This document shows, piece by piece, positions 19,401-44,318 of a DNA stretch of 48,536 nt. The first letter of the stretch is position 1. The number at the start of each line of letters is the position of its first letter. Location of the stretch: IMG/VR virus record IMGVR_UViG_3300034062_008208, positions 1 through 48,536 of that record; one strand, 5' to 3'. Below the pieces are notes generated by a model, which saw nothing but the letters and a program-made list of their open reading frames with translations, was not told the origin of the DNA and ran no database searches. The translations under genes were made by a program, and so were the position numbers. This stretch comes from a virus.

Positions 19401-21512
19401 ACACCAACATCTACTTTAACTCCAACACAAACTATAACAAATACACCAACATCAACTATTGGCGGTACTCCAACAGTAACTCCTACATTAACATCAACTC
19501 CTACGAATACTCCTTCTGTAACTGTTAGTCCGACATCAAGTGCTACGCCAACAATCACACCAACTACTACTACAACTCCAACAACAACAATTATTGTAAC
19601 TCCAACAACAACCCCAACGGTTACTCCTACAGAAACTCCAACCGTTACTCCAACAACAACCCCAACAGTTACTCCCACAACAACGATTACTCCAACTGTT
19701 ACTATAACACAAACACCAACAACAACTCCAACCGTTACTCCAACAGAAACTCCAACCCTTACTCCTACAGAAACGCCAACTGTTACACCGACGCTCACCT
19801 CTACACCAACAGAAACACCAACACCAACAGTAACACCGACACCAACAGCTACAGAGGGTTTAACACCAACTCCTACCCCATCTGTAACAGAAACCCCAAC
19901 AGTTACTCCAACAGAAACACCAACAACAACCCCAACAGTTACTCCAACAGAAACACCAACAACAACCCCAACAGTTACTCCAACAGAAACACCAACAACA
20001 ACCCCAACAGTTACTCCAACAGAAACACCAACAACAACCCCAACAGTTACTCCCACAGAAACCCCAACCGTTACTCCGACAACAACCCCAACTGTTACTC
20101 CCACAACAACGATTACTCCAACTGTTACTATAACACAAACATCAACAACAACACCAACAACCACGCCAACAATTACACAAACCATTACTCCTTCTTCGAC
20201 ACCAATAGCCGGATGGATTCAAAGAGGTGTAGATATTGATGGCGAGGCAGCTAATGATTACAGTGGAAGTAGTGTTGCTATGAATAATGATGGTACCGTA
20301 GTAGCAATAGGAGCATATAGCAACGATGGAAATGGAACAGACAGTGGACATACTAGAATATATGCTTGGAACGGAACCTCTTGGATTCAAAGAGGAAATG
20401 ATATTGATGGTGAAGCAGCTTTTGATACAAGTGGATACAGTGTTAGTCTCAATAATGATGGAGATATAGTAGCAATCGGAGCAAATGGAAATAATGGTAA
20501 CGGGACCGATAGCGGAAGCGTAAGAGTATATGTTTGGAATGGTTCAGTATGGACTCAACGAGGAAGTGATATTGATGGAGAAGCAACCAATGATGCTAGT
20601 GGTATTAGCGTTTCTTTAAATAGCGACGGCACCGTACTAGCAATAGGAGCGTCTTTAAATGATGGTAATGGAACCGATAGCGGTCATGTACGAGTATATA
20701 ATTGGAATGGTTCAGCATGGACACAACGAGGAAGCGATATTGATGGAGAAGCGGCAAGTGATTATAGTGGACAAAGCGTTAGCTTAAATGATAATGGAGA
20801 TATATTAGCTATTGGAGCATATGGTAATGATAGTAATGGAAATAATAGCGGTCATGTACGAGTATATTCTTGGAATGGCTCAGTATGGACTCAAAGAGGA
20901 AACGATATTGATGGTGAATCAGCTAACGATGCTAGTGGTTTTAATATTAGTATTAATAGTGATGGTACTATACTAGCGATAGGAGCAGGTGGAAATAGCG
21001 ATAATGGAACAGCTAGCGGCCATACCAGAGTGTATGTTTGGAATGGTACTTCTTGGGTTCAAAGAGGAAGCGATATTGATGGAGTAGCAGCAAATGATAA
21101 TAGTGGTCTTAGTGTATCATTAAATAATGATGGTAGCATATTAGCTATTGGATCGCCATATAATGACACAAACGGTACCAATAGTGGACATGTACGAGTA
21201 TATTCTTGGAATGGTAGTTCTTGGACGCAAGTTGGCGATAATATTAATGGAGAAACATCTTTAAATTATAGTGGAATTAGTGTTCATCTTAATGGAGATG
21301 GTACAATATTAACTATCGGAGCCTCTGGTAATAGTGATAATGGAGCTAGTAGTGGTAGTGTACGAGTATATAGATTAATTGGTATCTCTTTTACGCCCAC
21401 GCCAACAAAAACCTTAACACCCACACCAACTAAAACACCAACAACAACACCAACAGTAACTCCTTCAAAAACAGCATATTATTCAGGCCAACAATATAAT
21501 TTTATTCCATAA
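16446..21512 (+). CDS. Giant modular adhesin: two permuted FGE-like modules, Thr/Pro linkers, seven-repeat propeller
   Basis: 1688 residues. Order: FGE/C-type-lectin-like module 1 (about 10-315), with the C-terminal half first ([21 protein letters not shown]) and the N-terminal half second ([33 protein letters not shown]); a Thr/Pro linker (317-425); a small domain (426-487); a linker (488-630); module 2 (633-925), permuted the same way; a very long Thr/Pro linker (about 940-1252); seven repeats of about 56 residues (1255-1646), each with W-x-Q-x-G-x-D-I-D-G-E, S-x-D-G-x-x-x-A-I-G and H/S-V-R-V-Y-x-W-N-G, forming a probable seven-bladed beta-propeller; and a short linker tail. Neither module has FGE catalytic cysteines or a GC-rich variable stretch. 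Likely virion-surface, with O-glycosylatable linkers (inference). Confidence 0.8.
19897..20076 (+). repeat. 36-bp tandem repeat in a Thr/Pro linker
   Basis: The word CAACAGTTACTC recurs at 19897, 19933, 19969, 20005 and 20041, exactly 36 bases apart, and the intervening bases are nearly identical. Each unit codes 12 residues of the [12 protein letters not shown] type. It is a protein-coding repeat, not a CRISPR array. Confidence 0.9.
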
Positions 21513-37540: not shown

Positions 37541-39529
37541 ATGATTATAACTTATTTCCGTAGTTCGTCTTATAATGCCCATTCTATGTGCGAACAACAA
37601 TATTTTTTTGAATATGTACTAGGATGGAGGGGCCCAAGTGGACAAAAGGCGGATAAAGGAACAATAGTCCATAAAGTTTTAGAAATTCTTGCCATGATCA
37701 AACAAGGTCAGCAAGATAAATTATCTCATATAAATGATGACGAATTCTTAGGTCTTATAGATATAAATGACTATAGTCTTAATACCATAATAGAAAAAGT
37801 ATACAAGCATTATAGTACCGCTAATAGTCATCATACTTGGACTCTAAAAGATTATAAGGACTGCTATAATTGGGTTTACAAGGCTATAGAATTTAATGGC
37901 GGTATGTTTGATCCTAGAAATCGCACCATTCTTAGACCAGAACAACACTTTGATTTGGTAATAGAAAAACCATGGGCTAAATACGAGTATAATATTAATA
38001 ATCAAAAACTAGATGGATATTTGGGCTTAAAAGGCACTATAGATCTTATAACTTTGGCTAATGATAATACTATTGAGGTCATAGATTGGAAAGGATTGCC
38101 ATTAGATACAAAATTACCTACTCTTGACGGATGGACAACAATTGCAGATATAAATGTGGGATGTAATGTCTTTGATCAATACGGTAATATATGTCGCGTT
38201 GTTGGAAAATCAAAAGTCAAAACAAAAAAATGTTTCAGAGTAACTTTTGATGACAAAACATCGGTAATTTGTGACGATGAGCATTTATGGAAATTATCTA
38301 ATGGTGAAACGGTATCTATACAGGATCTAGTTATTGGCGATACTATTAATGTGACAAAACCATTAAAATGTAATGAACAATCCCTACCAATAGATCCTTA
38401 TCTATTAGGAGTCTGGTTAGGAGACGGAAGAAATAGAGGCTGCGAGATTAGTGGCAATGATACTGAAATTTTTGAAGAAATACAAGCAAGAGGTTATGAG
38501 CTAGGAAAAATTCAAAATGATAAAAGATCAAAAAATAAGACAGTATCGATCCTAAATGTGACAAAAATACTAAAATCTTTAAATCTATTGAATAATAAAC
38601 ATATACCAAAAATTTATTTGAGAGCATCTTTTCAACAAAGGCTAGACTTACTAAGGGGTTTGATGGATACAGACGGAAATGTAAATCCAATTAGAAAACA
38701 AACTGTGTTTACTTCTTGTAATAAAAAACTATCCGACGATGTTAAAGACCTACTTTTAACCCTTGGGCAAAGACCGAATCAAGCGTGTATTAAAAGAGAT
38801 ACAAATTACAAAAAAAACGTAATCATATATCCTATTTCGTTTCGTCCAATTGACATTAATCCTTTTCTATTGAGCAGGAAAAAAGAACTTGTGGATGTAA
38901 ATTGGGGATCTGGAAGATCTAGGGTTAGACGAGTTTCTAAAATAGAAGAATCGATTATACAAAAAACTCAATGCATTTCCGTAGACAGTCCAGACAATAC
39001 TTATCTGTGTACAGAAAATTATATTCCAACACATAATACTGGACGAAGACTAGATTGGGCAACAGGACAAGAAAAAACACAAGAAAAATTAGAAAAAGAT
39101 CCTCAACTCAAAATCTATCATTATGCTATTAAAAAACTGTATCCTCATATAGAGAATGTTATTTTTTCCATATATTTTATTAATGATGGTGGTCCTTTTT
39201 CTATGGTTTTTCATGATAGCGATCTTGCCGATACTGAAAATATGTTACGTCAAAAATTTGAAATCATTAAACAAACTAAACGACCACGATTGAATAAAAG
39301 TTGGATGTGTAATAAATTATGTCATTTTGGTAAGACTACATTTGCTAATACTAATATTGAGCCATTGAAAGAGTATAGGGATGGACAAATATGTCAAAAA
39401 GATTCGATCATGACAAAATGTGAACAAGTGAAGCACGACCTTGAACTTTACGGGATCGATGCTACAATGAGTATGTACAAGCACCCGAATCATTCTTTTG
39501 GATCCTACAAAGCACCCGGAACCGTATGA
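37541..39529 (+). CDS. Cas4/RecB-like PD-(D/E)XK nuclease interrupted by an intein
   Basis: 662 residues before splicing; about 347 after removal of the 315-residue intein. Extein motifs: SMCEQQYFFEYVLG with Cys17; GTIVHKVLE with His44; GTIDLI with Asp168; EVIDWK-TGRR, the catalytic D182-x-K184 split by the intein; and Q522-L-K-I-Y526 of the family's Q-x-x-x-Y motif. The C-terminal C590-x(3)-C594 with Cys17 might hold an iron-sulfur cluster as in Cas4/AddB (uncertain). Such nucleases process DNA ends in recombination. The position between kinase and polymerase fits a replication/recombination role. AGGATATC precedes ATG 37541. Confidence 0.85.
   Translation: MIITYFRSSSYNAHSMCEQQYFFEYVLGWRGPSGQKADKGTIVHKVLEILAMIKQGQQDKLSHINDDEFLGLIDINDYSLNTIIEKVYKHYSTANSHHTWTLKDYKDCYNWVYKAIEFNGGMFDPRNRTILRPEQHFDLVIEKPWAKYEYNINNQKLDGYLGLKGTIDLITLANDNTIEVIDWKGLPLDTKLPTLDGWTTIADINVGCNVFDQYGNICRVVGKSKVKTKKCFRVTFDDKTSVICDDEHLWKLSNGETVSIQDLVIGDTINVTKPLKCNEQSLPIDPYLLGVWLGDGRNRGCEISGNDTEIFEEIQARGYELGKIQNDKRSKNKTVSILNVTKILKSLNLLNNKHIPKIYLRASFQQRLDLLRGLMDTDGNVNPIRKQTVFTSCNKKLSDDVKDLLLTLGQRPNQACIKRDTNYKKNVIIYPISFRPIDINPFLLSRKKELVDVNWGSGRSRVRRVSKIEESIIQKTQCISVDSPDNTYLCTENYIPTHNTGRRLDWATGQEKTQEKLEKDPQLKIYHYAIKKLYPHIENVIFSIYFINDGGPFSMVFHDSDLADTENMLRQKFEIIKQTKRPRLNKSWMCNKLCHFGKTTFANTNIEPLKEYRDGQICQKDSIMTKCEQVKHDLELYGIDATMSMYKHPNHSFGSYKAPGTV
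38093..39037 (+). mobile_element. Intein with LAGLIDADG homing endonuclease, class 3-like
   Basis: Residues 185-499 of the nuclease. The start GLPLDTKLPTLDGWTT has no Cys or Ser at position 1. The end is IPTHN with Thr500 as +1 residue. Splicing residues fit class 3 inteins (WCT): Trp250 in DDEHLW (block B), Cys478 in QCISVD (block F) and Thr497 just before His498-Asn499. Two LAGLIDADG helices are visible: YLLGVWLGDG (288-297) and DLLRGLMDTDG (369-379), with an acidic residue in each, so the endonuclease may be active. The boundaries restore a continuous VIDWKTGRR in the host protein. Confidence 0.88.
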
Positions 39530-41394
39530 CTTATTCAGTACTACATTGTCATTCTCATTTTTCATTATTGGATGGCTTAAATAGACCAGAGCAAATTGCC
39601 ACCAGATGTGCCAAACTGGGCATAAAATCATGCGCCTTAACAGATCATGGTAATATTGCTGGATCGGTACAGTTTTATCAGAAAATGAGATCTAAGAATA
39701 TTAAACCTATTCTTGGATGCGAATTATATATTTGTGAAGATGATCCATCAATACAAACAAAAGAGAATGCTTCCTTGTCGCATTTTCTCGTACTTGCTAA
39801 AAATTTAAAAGGCTGGAAAACACTCATCAAAATAGTCTCGGAATCAAATAGGCCAGATTATTTTTACCATAAGCCAAGACTAAGTATCAAAAAATTATCA
39901 GAATTACTAGATGGTAACATAATAGGTGTTTGTGGTCATTTGGGATCGACCCTATCGGATATTATCTTAAAAGATCAGGATAATAGTATTTCTAATGGTC
40001 TTTCTTTTATAGACAATATGAAAACTATATTCGGTGATAATAATTTTTATTTGGAAACACAATTATTCGATAAAGACTATCTAAAAGAACAAGTCTATTT
40101 AACAGAAACGATTAGGCGACTATCCGAATTAAGTAAAATTAAGGCAGTATCTACTCCCGATGCTCATTATTGCGAACAAGACGACGCTATAGACCAAAGG
40201 ATTCTTCTTTGCAATAATTTAAAAACAACACTATCTGATATTAATACTAAATTAATTAATAATCAAAGTATTCCTATGGAGTGCTTCTTTAAAAGTGATA
40301 AATATTATATCCTATCTCCAGAAGAGATGACGAACCTACATAGTCCACAGGAAATAGAAAATACAATTTTTGTCGATAGCTTAATAGAAGAGTTCGACAT
40401 CTTATCTGCTCCAAAATTGCCTAATTTTGATTGTCCAGAAAACTATGATCCTGATGAATTTTTAAGGGAATTGTGTAGAGTTGGATGGAAAAATAAAATC
40501 ATTCCAAATATTCCAAAGGATGATCATCAAGTTTATGTAGATAGAATAAAATATGAGTTAGATATATTACAAGGTGCTAGTTTATCTAGTTATTTTTTAA
40601 TTGTGCAAGATATAGTCAACCATGTTAGACATAATAACTGGCTACCTGGACCGGGCAGAGGAAGTGGGGCTGGGTGTCTGGTTTCTTACCTTGTTGGTAT
40701 CACAGATATTGATCCCATGAAATATGATTTATTATTCGAAAGATTTTATAATGCTGGTAGAAATACTAAAGATAGAATCTCTATGCCAGATATTGATATA
40801 GATATTCCAATCGATAAACGCGAACAAGTATTAGAATACATAAAAAATAAATATGGACACAGTAAAGTATCTCAAATGATTACTTTTAATACTATGAAAG
40901 GTAGAGGGGCACTAAAAGACGTATTGCGAGTATATGGTAATATTAGTTTCGAAGAGATGAATACTATTACTAAGTTTATTCCTGACGAAGCTAAGATAGC
41001 GGACGAGCTTCAAGAAATGAAAGAAGATACTGGAGAAGCATCTATTATCAGATGGGCTCTAGAAAATAATACGGATAAACTAAAAGAATGGTGCTATATA
41101 TCTGAAGAGGACGGGACTTTATCTGGGCCTCTATCTAAAAGATTTGAACAGGCAATAAGATTGGAGGGAACAAAATCTAATCAAAGCAAACATGCTGCTG
41201 GTGTAATAATAGGTACTCAAGACCTTGCGTCTTTATGCCCGATGGTCTATGATAACAGAAATGATCAGCTTATCGCTGGCATGGAGATGAACGATCTAGA
41301 GAGTTTGGGTCTAATAAAATTTGACATATTGGGTATCGCATATTTGGATAAAATTATGTCAGTATCAGAATATTTAAAACACGGAGAACTATAA
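39526..41394 (+). CDS. dnaE: DNA polymerase III alpha, N-terminal part (PHP and catalytic palm)
   Basis: 622 residues. The PHP domain begins LHCHSHFSLLDG, with LTDHGN, ILGCELY and STPDAHY carrying metal ligands, so it looks intact. The palm has GPGRGSGAGCLVSYLVGITD and SMPDIDIDI (the catalytic Asp pair, about 422-424), and the third Asp in IKFDILGI (about 600). The protein then stops, where cellular DnaE (about 1160 residues) continues into the fingers. The missing part is encoded 0.9 kb downstream at 42273-43886. Together they should form the replicative polymerase. The start overlaps the nuclease stop (ATGA). Confidence 0.9.
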   Translation: MTYSVLHCHSHFSLLDGLNRPEQIATRCAKLGIKSCALTDHGNIAGSVQFYQKMRSKNIKPILGCELYICEDDPSIQTKENASLSHFLVLAKNLKGWKTLIKIVSESNRPDYFYHKPRLSIKKLSELLDGNIIGVCGHLGSTLSDIILKDQDNSISNGLSFIDNMKTIFGDNNFYLETQLFDKDYLKEQVYLTETIRRLSELSKIKAVSTPDAHYCEQDDAIDQRILLCNNLKTTLSDINTKLINNQSIPMECFFKSDKYYILSPEEMTNLHSPQEIENTIFVDSLIEEFDILSAPKLPNFDCPENYDPDEFLRELCRVGWKNKIIPNIPKDDHQVYVDRIKYELDILQGASLSSYFLIVQDIVNHVRHNNWLPGPGRGSGAGCLVSYLVGITDIDPMKYDLLFERFYNAGRNTKDRISMPDIDIDIPIDKREQVLEYIKNKYGHSKVSQMITFNTMKGRGALKDVLRVYGNISFEEMNTITKFIPDEAKIADELQEMKEDTGEASIIRWALENNTDKLKEWCYISEEDGTLSGPLSKRFEQAIRLEGTKSNQSKHAAGVIIGTQDLASLCPMVYDNRNDQLIAGMEMNDLESLGLIKFDILGIAYLDKIMSVSEYLKHGEL

Positions 41395-41577
41395 ATGCTA
41401 ACAAAAACTTTAGATCAAGTTGCTGCTGGCGAAATATTCAAGGTTAATAATATTAACTATGTCAAAATCGCCGAGGTTCGTGTCAGTTGTTGCAGAACCG
41501 TGAACTGTCACGTTCTAGAAGATAGTAATCAAAGGACTTTTTTCCCAGGAAACACAGTTGTGGAGACTAATGGCTAA
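41395..41577 (+). CDS. Small protein between the two polymerase halves
   Basis: 60 residues, ATG directly after the TAA of the polymerase N-part. Beta-rich by appearance: GEIFKVNNINYVKIAEVR, then SCCRTVNCHVLED and TFFPGNTVVE, with three Cys close together. The pattern is like short beta-barrel proteins of phages, with no function known to me. It overlaps the exonuclease start by 8 bases, where GTGGAG provides a ribosome site. Confidence 0.65.
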   Translation: MLTKTLDQVAAGEIFKVNNINYVKIAEVRVSCCRTVNCHVLEDSNQRTFFPGNTVVETNG

Positions 41578-42271
41578 TTTACAAAAAATTTGTGTATTCG
41601 ATTTAGAAACGGACGGGGCTAATCCCGATATTTGTAGCCCCGTTCAAATCGCTGCTGTTATTATCGATCCTTATAAATTAGAAATAATCAAAGATTCAGA
41701 ATTTAATATCAATCTAAAGCCCCAAGCAATACAAGATAATCCAGAATATATATATGATGATTCAGATGTTCTGGATTTTCATGCCAAAGTTAGAGGATGT
41801 GATAAAACAAAAATCTTAGAAGATTGGAGATCTTTCCAGAAACAAGACAGTGGATGGAAAATGTTTGTATCATATTTGGAAAAATATCATATAAGATCTG
41901 ATAAAAAATCTTGCTTTACAGCTCCTATTGCTGCTGGCTATAATATTAATAGATTCGATCTAAGAATTATAGATAGATTAAGCATAAAATATAATAATGT
42001 CAATAAGGAGGGACGAACATCTCTATTTTATCCACGAGATGTTATTGACTTAATGAACGTTATTTTTTATTGGTTTGAAGGTAATAATGAGCTTAAAAAC
42101 TATACACTTGATAATGTTAGAGAATATTTAGGATTAGGAAATAGTGGCTCTCATGATGCTCTAAATGATGTTAGGGCAACAGCTGATATTTTGATAAGGT
42201 TTATGAAATTACATAGAAATTTATCGAATAAGGTAAAATTCAGAAACGCCTTTGCTCTTGCAAAAAATTGA
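41570..42271 (+). CDS. dnaQ: DnaQ-like DEDDh 3'-5' exonuclease
   Basis: 233 residues from ATG 41570, with GTGGAG 5 bases upstream. Exo I is FDLETDG (Asp11, Glu13), Exo II is AGYNINRFDLRII, and Exo III is SHDALNDVRATADIL with His and Asp five apart, so DEDDh type. The family removes mispaired 3' ends. Being placed between the two polymerase alpha genes, it very probably proofreads for this polymerase as the epsilon subunit does in bacteria (inference from context). No clamp-binding motif was identified with confidence. The symbol names the family member type. Confidence 0.88.
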   Translation: MANLQKICVFDLETDGANPDICSPVQIAAVIIDPYKLEIIKDSEFNINLKPQAIQDNPEYIYDDSDVLDFHAKVRGCDKTKILEDWRSFQKQDSGWKMFVSYLEKYHIRSDKKSCFTAPIAAGYNINRFDLRIIDRLSIKYNNVNKEGRTSLFYPRDVIDLMNVIFYWFEGNNELKNYTLDNVREYLGLGNSGSHDALNDVRATADILIRFMKLHRNLSNKVKFRNAFALAKN

Positions 42272-42272
42272 A

Positions 42273-43886
42273 ATGACTCAATATTTTACTTTTGATTGTG
42301 GATGTAAGTTCAAGGTTTTGGAATATACCTCAGAAGGAATTCCAAAAATAGAATTTACAGGTAAGTTGAGCGATCTTAATCTTGATTGTTCAAAAACATG
42401 GTCTATGATCGGAGATGGTAATACCAAGGGTGTATTTCAACTAGAATCAAGGTTAGGTTCTAGTATGGCTAAAAAATTAAAACCAGAGAATATAGAACAA
42501 CTATCTGCCCTAATTAGTATTATGAGGCCAGGATCTTTGGAAGCTTATAGAGATGGTAAAAGTATTAGTCATCATTATATAGACAAAAAGAATGGTCAAG
42601 AAAGCTTAGACTATTTTCACCCATCCCTTGAGCCATCATTAAAATCAACCTATGGAGAGATGATATATCAAGAACAGGCCATGCAAATCGCGCAAGCGGT
42701 GGCTGGTTTTGATCTACAAGAGGCAGATATGCTGCGTAAAGCAATTGGCAAAAAGAAGCCAGAAGAAATGGCTAAGATCAGGGTAAAGTTTAAGGATGGT
42801 GCTAAAAAACTGAATATAGTCAACGACGAAGAAATAGACGAAATATTTAGTTGGATTGAAAAAAGTCAAAGATATTCTTTTAACAAAAGCCACGCTGTGT
42901 CATATGCTATGAATGCATATTCTTCGGCTTATGCAAAAGCTCATTTTGCTAAAGTATTTTTTGCATCATACCTTAAATTTGCAAAAGATAAAATGGATCC
43001 TCAAAAAGAAATAAAAGAACTAATACGTAATGCAACAGAAATGGATGTGATTGTATGTGTTCCTGATGTAAGAAAGCTTAATAAGCATTTTACTATTAGC
43101 GATGATAAAATATATTTTGGTCTTACCGATATTAAGGGTGTCGGTTATTCTGTTTATGATAAATTATTAACTATTATTAAAGACTTAGATATAAATAATA
43201 TATCTTGGAATACATGTTTAGTTAAAGTTTTAACAAAAATTAATTCCACAGCAGCTAAAGCATTAATATCATGTGGCGCTTTAGATCATCATAATATCAC
43301 CCGTACAAAAATGTTATTTGAATACGATATAATATCTGAATTAACTTCTAGAGAATTAGATCTATTAGACTTGGAAAAGTCGTCTATTGCACAATCTTTA
43401 CATGGTTTATTGACACAAAATAAAATTAATATTAAGCGAAAAAGTAGCATACAAAATCTTATCAATTTATATAACAATCCGCCATATTCATTAGATGATA
43501 AAATAGAATGGCTATCTGATACAGAAAATGCTTTATTAGGGGCCTCTATAACTTGTTTTAAGATAGATTCTTATGATATTAGTATGACAAATTGTGATTG
43601 TAAAGCTTTCAAGACTACCAACGCATCAAAAAATATTATTTTAGCAGGAGAAATTAGTTCCATCAACTTTGTCAAAACAAAAAACGGCAAAAATCCTGGG
43701 GCTGAAATGGCCTTTGTCACAATAGAGGATCAATTTGCATCACTAGACTCAGTAATATTATTTCCTGAGCAATTATCAAAATATCGTAACTATCTATTCG
43801 ATGGTAATGTACTAATATTCTTAGGTAATAAAAGTTCTAAAAAAGATTCTTTTATAGTGGAGAAATGTTTTATACCAAGATCTTGA
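42273..43886 (+). CDS. dnaE: DNA polymerase III alpha, C-terminal part (fingers and tail)
   Basis: 537 residues from ATG 42273 (TTG 42252 is an in-frame alternative; neither has a good ribosome site). After a 40-residue lead with FDCGCKFKVLE it enters the DnaE fingers at GVFQLESRLGSSMAKKLKPENIEQLSALISIMRPG. SYGEMIYQEQAMQIAQAVAGFDLQEADMLRKAIGKK follows, then RYSFNKSHAVSYAMNAYSSAYAKAHF, the helix-hairpin-helix region and an OB-fold (ILAGEISSINFVKTKNGK). It has no catalytic Asp of its own, so it must pair with the N-part. Its last codons hold the left arm of an inverted repeat around the ssb promoter. Confidence 0.88.
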   Translation: MTQYFTFDCGCKFKVLEYTSEGIPKIEFTGKLSDLNLDCSKTWSMIGDGNTKGVFQLESRLGSSMAKKLKPENIEQLSALISIMRPGSLEAYRDGKSISHHYIDKKNGQESLDYFHPSLEPSLKSTYGEMIYQEQAMQIAQAVAGFDLQEADMLRKAIGKKKPEEMAKIRVKFKDGAKKLNIVNDEEIDEIFSWIEKSQRYSFNKSHAVSYAMNAYSSAYAKAHFAKVFFASYLKFAKDKMDPQKEIKELIRNATEMDVIVCVPDVRKLNKHFTISDDKIYFGLTDIKGVGYSVYDKLLTIIKDLDINNISWNTCLVKVLTKINSTAAKALISCGALDHHNITRTKMLFEYDIISELTSRELDLLDLEKSSIAQSLHGLLTQNKINIKRKSSIQNLINLYNNPPYSLDDKIEWLSDTENALLGASITCFKIDSYDISMTNCDCKAFKTTNASKNIILAGEISSINFVKTKNGKNPGAEMAFVTIEDQFASLDSVILFPEQLSKYRNYLFDGNVLIFLGNKSSKKDSFIVEKCFIPRS

Positions 43887-43910: not shown

Positions 43911-43949
43911 ATGTATAGTTGTGGCGTTTTTAACTTTAGGAGTTTGATT

Positions 43950-44318
43950 ATGAATATCACTTTGTTGAAGGGTAATTTAGCACGAGATCCGGAACTACGC
44001 GTTGTTAATCCTAATGGAAAGCAAACAAGCGTTGTCAACTTTACTATTGCTGTTAACAGAGATTATGTTAAGGCTAATGGAGAAAAAGACAGGATCACAT
44101 CTTTTATTAACTGCGAGGCATGGGATAGCGGCGCCGAAACTATTGCTGAGTCCTTGAAGAAGGGCGACTTGGTGATGGTTGAAGGCTCCTTAAGAAATGA
44201 CACATGGGAAAAAGATGGTGTTAAGCATAGTAGTCTAAAGGTTAGAGTTAATAACTTTTCTAAGATTACCAAGTTGAGCAGAATTAAGTCGGAAGAGTCC
44301 GAAACTGTTGCTTTCTGA
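43950..44318 (+). CDS. ssb: Single-stranded DNA-binding protein
   Basis: 122 residues from ATG 43950, with AGGAG 7 bases upstream. OB-fold pattern: LLKGNLARDPELR, VVNFTIAVNRDY, SFINCEAWDSGAETIAESLKKGDLVMVEGSL and the tail strand SSLKVRVNNF. It coats single strands at the fork. The usual acidic SSB tail (DDDIPF) is absent; the end is ESETVAF, weakly acidic with terminal Phe, so partner contacts may differ. It has its own strong promoter with an inverted repeat and is followed by a hairpin, so it can be expressed alone, as expected for an abundant protein. Confidence 0.92.
   Translation: MNITLLKGNLARDPELRVVNPNGKQTSVVNFTIAVNRDYVKANGEKDRITSFINCEAWDSGAETIAESLKKGDLVMVEGSLRNDTWEKDGVKHSSLKVRVNNFSKITKLSRIKSEESETVAF

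Follow-up and report, generated by a model that had tools for sequence, protein, structure and literature searches.

Several systems are known in which a gene for a DNA polymerase comes in two pieces. In T4-like phages the polymerase gene gp43 is split by homing endonucleases. In cyanobacteria DnaE, the alpha subunit of DNA polymerase III (Pol III), is cut around FNKSH, deeper in the fingers than the cut described below, and the two products are trans-spliced. Genes fractured by split inteins were described by Dassa et al. 2009, as cited in PMC6892783. A minimal split Pol III alpha beside a main PolB was reported for jumbo phages of group 2.2, for example Agrobacterium phage Atu_ph07, and a split phage Pol III alpha is thus already known as an idea (PMC7824862). 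Here we describe a stretch of 48,536 nucleotides (nt), positions 1 to 48,536 of IMG/VR record IMGVR_UViG_3300034062_008208 and hereafter called the window, which is part of an uncultured phage contig and encodes Pol III alpha in two open reading frames (ORFs), dnaE-N and dnaE-C. We propose that the bacterial-type Pol III alpha of a large uncultured phage clade very probably consists of two polypeptides that dock non-covalently and act as the replicative polymerase.

In dnaE-N Pfam models detected PHP (E=4e-38) and DNA_pol3_alpha (PF07733, E=4e-73), and the protein carries the three catalytic Asp (PDIDID, KFD) as well as the PHP metal ligands. DNA_pol3_finger (PF17657, E=2e-48) and HHH_6 were found in dnaE-C. 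A single PHROG (405) spans both halves in order, with profile positions 42-615 in the first and 610-1054 in the second. dnaE-N was aligned with residues 9-565 of E. coli alpha, and also with the DnaE of T. aquaticus and M. tuberculosis, and the profile match of dnaE-C begins at E. coli residue 585. We take the palm of E. coli alpha to extend to near residue 560 and the fingers to start near 561; by these alignments the cut is placed at the palm/fingers boundary, at about residues 566-584. An earlier reading made from the letters of this DNA only (the sequence-only reading) had put the end of the N-part past the third catalytic Asp and the start of the C-part before the fingers motif. The alignments bear this out, and its coordinates 41394 and 42273 agree with the ORF calls.

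Relatives were gathered by four scans of viral contigs and one of genomes, and ranged from 100% down to about 40% identity. This resulted in 321 scoreable clade loci, some of them the same contig fetched twice, with 210 distinct C-part sequences; residue conservation was followed in 184 complete sequences (151 clusters at 95% identity). The split with an exonuclease gene in the gap was present at 321/321 scoreable loci, an intact gene at none, and three further clade loci were interrupted by contig ends. The 80 IMG/VR relatives of the first round had the same architecture, contig-truncated ones aside. No intact dnaE was found inside the clade in the four viral scans and the genome scan, in which all intact matches were bacterial or from distant phages. 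The palm Asp triad, the GPGRGS loop and the key finger residues were invariant in all 184 sequences, as was the D,E,D,H,D set of the exonuclease, and the PHP metal ligands were kept in 157-183 of them. No isolate of the clade was found: the exonuclease showed 27% identity to Bacteroides phages and the DnaE halves at most about 34%, and the small gene of the gap gave no match.

In a tree of the joined N and C sequences the split clade was monophyletic (ultrafast bootstrap, UFBoot, 100). It nested in a phage DnaE clade (UFBoot 100) together with intact Bacillus-phage and actinophage enzymes. Because the split clade lies among intact phage DnaE, we concluded that the split is derived and older than the radiation of the lineage; this dating is what the sequence-only reading had hoped to gain from a comparison with relatives. 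Tree distances of the N- and C-parts were correlated with r=0.94, the largest of 500 permutations giving 0.16, and those of the exonuclease were correlated with the polymerase halves at r=0.92-0.95.

The exonuclease gene was never absent from between the halves (321/321 loci), so that its physical tie to the polymerase genes, proposed from the window, extends to the whole sample. Its product matched RNase_T (E=2e-10, Pfam), phrog_192 'DNA polymerase exonuclease subunit' and the PolC exonuclease 2p1j (E=9e-7). It has the D-x-E, D and H...D of DEDDh enzymes (184/184), and it is tied to alpha by gene linkage. In the window the exonuclease starts with an ATG at 41570, within the 3' end of the small gene, and stops 1 nt before dnaE-C. 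The distance from exonuclease stop to dnaE-C start was -25 to +30 nt in 191 of 210 sequences, mostly -4, -8 or -1, and this closeness argues for translational coupling. From gene order and spacing, the fixed unit is N-part, exonuclease and C-part, predicted to be translationally coupled. L064 and L068 are among the rare exceptions to this tight spacing; there, extra genes (membrane protein, methyltransferase, ThyX-like) lie between exonuclease and dnaE-C (L064 4990-5990, L068 2373-5983).

Between N-part and exonuclease the locus takes up variable cargo, and the small gene is an optional occupant of this slot. The small gene family occupied the gap at 251/321 loci and was seen nowhere else among the sampled loci; in 70 it was missing or replaced. 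The alternatives in the slot were a 71-aa (amino acid) family, a uracil-DNA glycosylase, a GroES-like gene, probable HNH-type endonuclease ORFs (judged by eye; no Pfam match) or nothing. The sequence-only reading was right that a small gene and an exonuclease lie between the halves. An essential role of the small gene was ruled out by these counts. The small protein was modelled by AlphaFold2 (AF2) with a predicted local distance difference test (pLDDT) score of 93 and has an invariant SCC motif. Its closest folds were the N domains of EF-P/eIF5A, a weak match (E=0.04).

The link between the halves had been thought to be short, and here the prediction failed. Intact enzymes place about 48 residues between the third Asp and VFQLE, against about 22+51 in the split ones, and thus no residues were lost at the junction and some were gained. 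dnaE-N stops about 22 residues past the third catalytic Asp in the window and 20-31 residues past it in 184/184 relatives. The head of dnaE-C gained about 25 residues, which fold into a beta element whose CxC...C motif is nearly invariant. Cys 9, 11 and 39 were kept in 182-183 of the 184 sequences, and CxC was found in 0/46 linkers of intact enzymes. The strands were predicted at residues 4-6, 12-18 and 24-26 (pLDDT about 90, AF2), and the element is a possible zinc knuckle. The AF2 model of dnaE-C alone (pLDDT 92.4) has the DnaE fingers-OB fold and matches 7pu7, the DnaE1 of M. tuberculosis, over 528 columns. Given this confident model and near-full-length match, dnaE-C is expected to fold by itself.

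DnaE palm and finger domains were present in 18/18 clade contigs of 92-231 kb, one set in 16 and two in G010 and G011, and with Pfam models neither PolA nor PolB was detected in any of the 18. Judged by these domain searches, the split DnaE is apparently the only replicative polymerase detectable in large clade contigs. The C-part as a second polymerase, a possibility that the sequence-only reading had named against itself, was ruled out by the large contigs, since 16/18 have one N and one C and the other two have two of each. The two sets lie at 19580 and 165638 in the L320 contig (G010) and at 55229 and 201284 in the L317 contig (G011). The finger ORF of the second set has just 315 aa, and the contigs are either joined assemblies or carry a real duplication.

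If the two halves dock non-covalently, a polycistronic mRNA would give N-part, cargo where present, exonuclease and C-part successively by coupled translation. The palm half and the fingers half would then dock and rebuild the active site, perhaps aided by the CxC...C beta element with which dnaE-C begins, and the DEDDh protein may act as an epsilon-like proofreading subunit. As to the origin, an intact phage dnaE may have been broken once, by an inserted gene or a mobile element, at a permissive surface loop and before the radiation, and the exonuclease gene would then have been locked between the halves. We also considered that the replicase core could be an obligate heterotrimer of palm half, fingers half and exonuclease, in which the exonuclease would be co-translated immediately ahead of the fingers half and the CxC...C element would serve as docking clasp. 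This idea is tentative and we hold it to be rather unlikely; if true, the split would couple or regulate polymerase assembly and proofreading beyond any single-chain Pol III.

Instead of docking, the halves could be joined covalently, either by a group I or group II intron whose ORFs would be the exonuclease and the small gene, or by a split intein of strongly diverged sequence. Clade dnaE-N is truly a target of such elements: in L048, L061 and L077 it is fractured by a split intein at GPGRG/S, with CFLPDSR...CTKDHKFL... and ...YNIEGIGVHN/S flanking a Vsr-like endonuclease ORF, and L007 and L020 carry inserts. At the palm/fingers junction, however, the N tails measure 20-31 aa and the C heads about 51 aa, neither contains intein blocks, and the sequence-only reading had likewise seen no intein fragments there. 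dnaE-C has its own start codon, which overlaps or abuts the exonuclease stop. Rfam found nothing at E<=1 in 41300-42500, whereas as a control the probable dnaE group I intron of Bacillus phage KLEB27-3 was matched at E=0.004, below the gathering score. Loci L209 and L302 lack the small gene; there exonuclease and N-part end overlap, the dnaE-C start overlaps or abuts the exonuclease, and genes packed in this way leave no room for an intron core. We concluded that covalent joining is very improbable. Also improbable, if slightly less so, is that one half works outside the replicase, for example as a PHP nuclease beside a separate DNA-binding protein, or that the locus decays while a host polymerase copies the phage. 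Large phages are able to use host replicases, and Atu_ph07 keeps split remnants beside PolB (PMC7824862). In the clade, however, the active sites of palm, fingers and exonuclease show no residue change in 184 sequences, the two halves always co-occur, the locus of the window sits in a replication operon, and no alternative polymerase was detected. Decay in particular was ruled out by the constancy of the split at 321/321 loci together with the 184/184 catalytic residues. It is likewise highly unlikely that the small protein of 60 aa is the glue that holds the halves together: its restriction to the gap and its SCC motif would fit such a role, but the split is kept at 70/321 loci in which the small gene is lacking or has given way to unrelated ones.

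A sequencing error or frameshift, against which the sequence-only reading had cautioned, was ruled out by the 321 loci, a recurrence far beyond chance; independent assemblies show the same split, and the N and C frames vary at random between loci. Stop-codon reassignment was also ruled out, as all three stops terminate the N-part and the exonuclease among relatives. Non-covalent assembly, as the sequence-only reading had supposed, is the sole remaining route consistent with the data. Several points weigh against a docked two-piece replicase. There are 27 supported splits of the N tree that clash with supported splits of the C tree, a conflict that is due to some recombination between the halves or to model error. 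Congruence of the trees is a weak sign of physical contact, because phage genomes co-inherit neighbouring genes. The zinc idea for the dnaE-C head has just three evident ligands. The Rfam method missed the probable intron of L007, so that its null result is not decisive alone and the argument from space is the stronger one. The lack of other polymerases was established with Pfam models, on contigs without certified completeness.

The features of the locus are listed in the table. The genes 5' of dnaE-N encode a DnaB-like helicase, a primase, a dNMP (deoxynucleoside monophosphate) kinase and the PD-(D/E)XK nuclease (Pfam, PHROG), and judged by this gene content the split dnaE sits within a replication operon.

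Features of the split dnaE locus and its neighbours in the window
Feature	Coordinates	Strand	Size and remarks	Basis
PD-(D/E)XK nuclease gene	37541..39529	+	4-nt overlap with dnaE-N start	Pfam PDDEXK_1, LAGLIDADG_3
dnaE-N, PHP + palm + thumb half of Pol III alpha	39526..41394	+	622 aa	Pfam/PHROG
Small gene, predicted SH3-like/EF-P-N-domain-like beta barrel	41395..41577	+	60 aa; SCC motif	AF2
DEDDh 3'-5' exonuclease, candidate epsilon-like proofreading subunit	41570..42271	+	233 aa	RNase_T, phrog_192
dnaE-C, fingers + HhH + OB half of Pol III alpha	42273..43886	+	537 aa; ATG start	
dnaE-C N-terminal clade-specific element	42273..42404	+	three short strands; CGC....C (Cys 9, 11, 39)	
SSB (single-stranded DNA-binding protein) gene, directly 3' of dnaE-C	43911..44318	+		Pfam SSB; operon synteny in close relatives

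The nuclease gene at 37541-39529 contains an in-frame LAGLIDADG intein at about residues 188-498, an insert that is missing from most relatives. In PHROG this gene is tied to families with a phage terminase annotation, probably via common inteins. Further insertions were seen in dnaE genes. The second fracture of dnaE-N lies at 2050-5120 in L048, 2044-5120 in L061 and 1327-4400 in L077, giving three dnaE genes per phage. Inserts of 1.1 kb with a LAGLIDADG ORF lie just 5' of PDIDID in L007 (3400-4502) and L020 (3417-4519), and a third insert was found just 5' of PDIDID in Bacillus phage Jayan (L082, 5209-5480); these three are probably introns unrecognised by Rfam. In L094 (3095-5884) an apparent group II intron, whose reverse transcriptase/maturase ORF includes HNH, breaks a Clostridiales dnaE right at its third catalytic Asp. 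Clade genes at 43% identity occur in L089 and L090, assigned to a metagenome-assembled genome of Lokiarchaeota, which probably reflects misbinning but may instead hint at an unexpected host. The record of 'Pseudomonas phage Y1' (L085, OQ572403) has lpxB-rnhB-dnaE in the order of a bacterial chromosome and looks host-contaminated.

A polymerase divided through its active-site cleft would be expected to be fragile, yet this is the fixed state of a phage lineage with at least 210 distinct sequences and further ones in IMG/VR. The clade offers a natural, testable system in which to see how a C-family polymerase may function in two pieces. It bears on the fixation of split genes in the absence of inteins and on the way in which a proofreading exonuclease gets linked to its polymerase, and it provides a natural split site for an engineered, switchable Pol III. 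In the open-licence literature we found no published account of a whole clade that combines a DnaE cut between palm and fingers with a lodged exonuclease, a new head element and the lack of another polymerase.

Compared with known enzymes, the clade polymerase has the PHP domain, the three-Asp palm and the fingers, HhH and OB of DnaE, and departs from it at 321/321 loci in not being a single polypeptide. As in cyanobacteria, Pol III alpha comes from two genes, but the C-part holds FNKSH unbroken and the cut is without intein halves. The genes fractured by split inteins and gp43 of T4-like phages share with the clade that an essential phage replication gene is in two pieces. In contrast to both, the clade junction has no intein and mostly no endonuclease, and the lodged gene is a proofreading exonuclease and is fixed. 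In Atu_ph07 Pol III alpha is likewise made as two proteins, which are thought to reconstitute a polymerase (PMC7824862). There the cut lies before PDIDID, the spot that coincides with the inserts of L007, L020 and L082. The Asp triad and a finger remnant share a 191-aa piece near 58 kb, some 180 kb from the N piece, which lies near 241 kb. In the window clade the halves are adjacent, the cut comes after the triad, the domains are full-length, an exonuclease is in the gap and no PolB was detected.

The cut itself is matched by Rossellomorea phage phiT1 (PV767480), in which DnaE is divided at the same palm/fingers junction into gp20 and gp18 with a 49-aa gene, gp19, between them. The junction reads KFDLLGLKTLKVIQ... 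/ MFDILDIPLDD...GVFQLES (L377 1613-4895), and the split is annotated in the phiT1 record. It differs from the clade in that the gap is without an exonuclease, the C-part is without the CxC...C head and identity is about 30%. The phiT1 split is likely independent of the clade split, the tree being unresolved there (supports 62-67). The phiT1 genome gave no PolA match. An isolate with the same cut and no PolA match makes a working two-piece enzyme plausible, and phiT1 is a good laboratory model for a DnaE split between palm and fingers.

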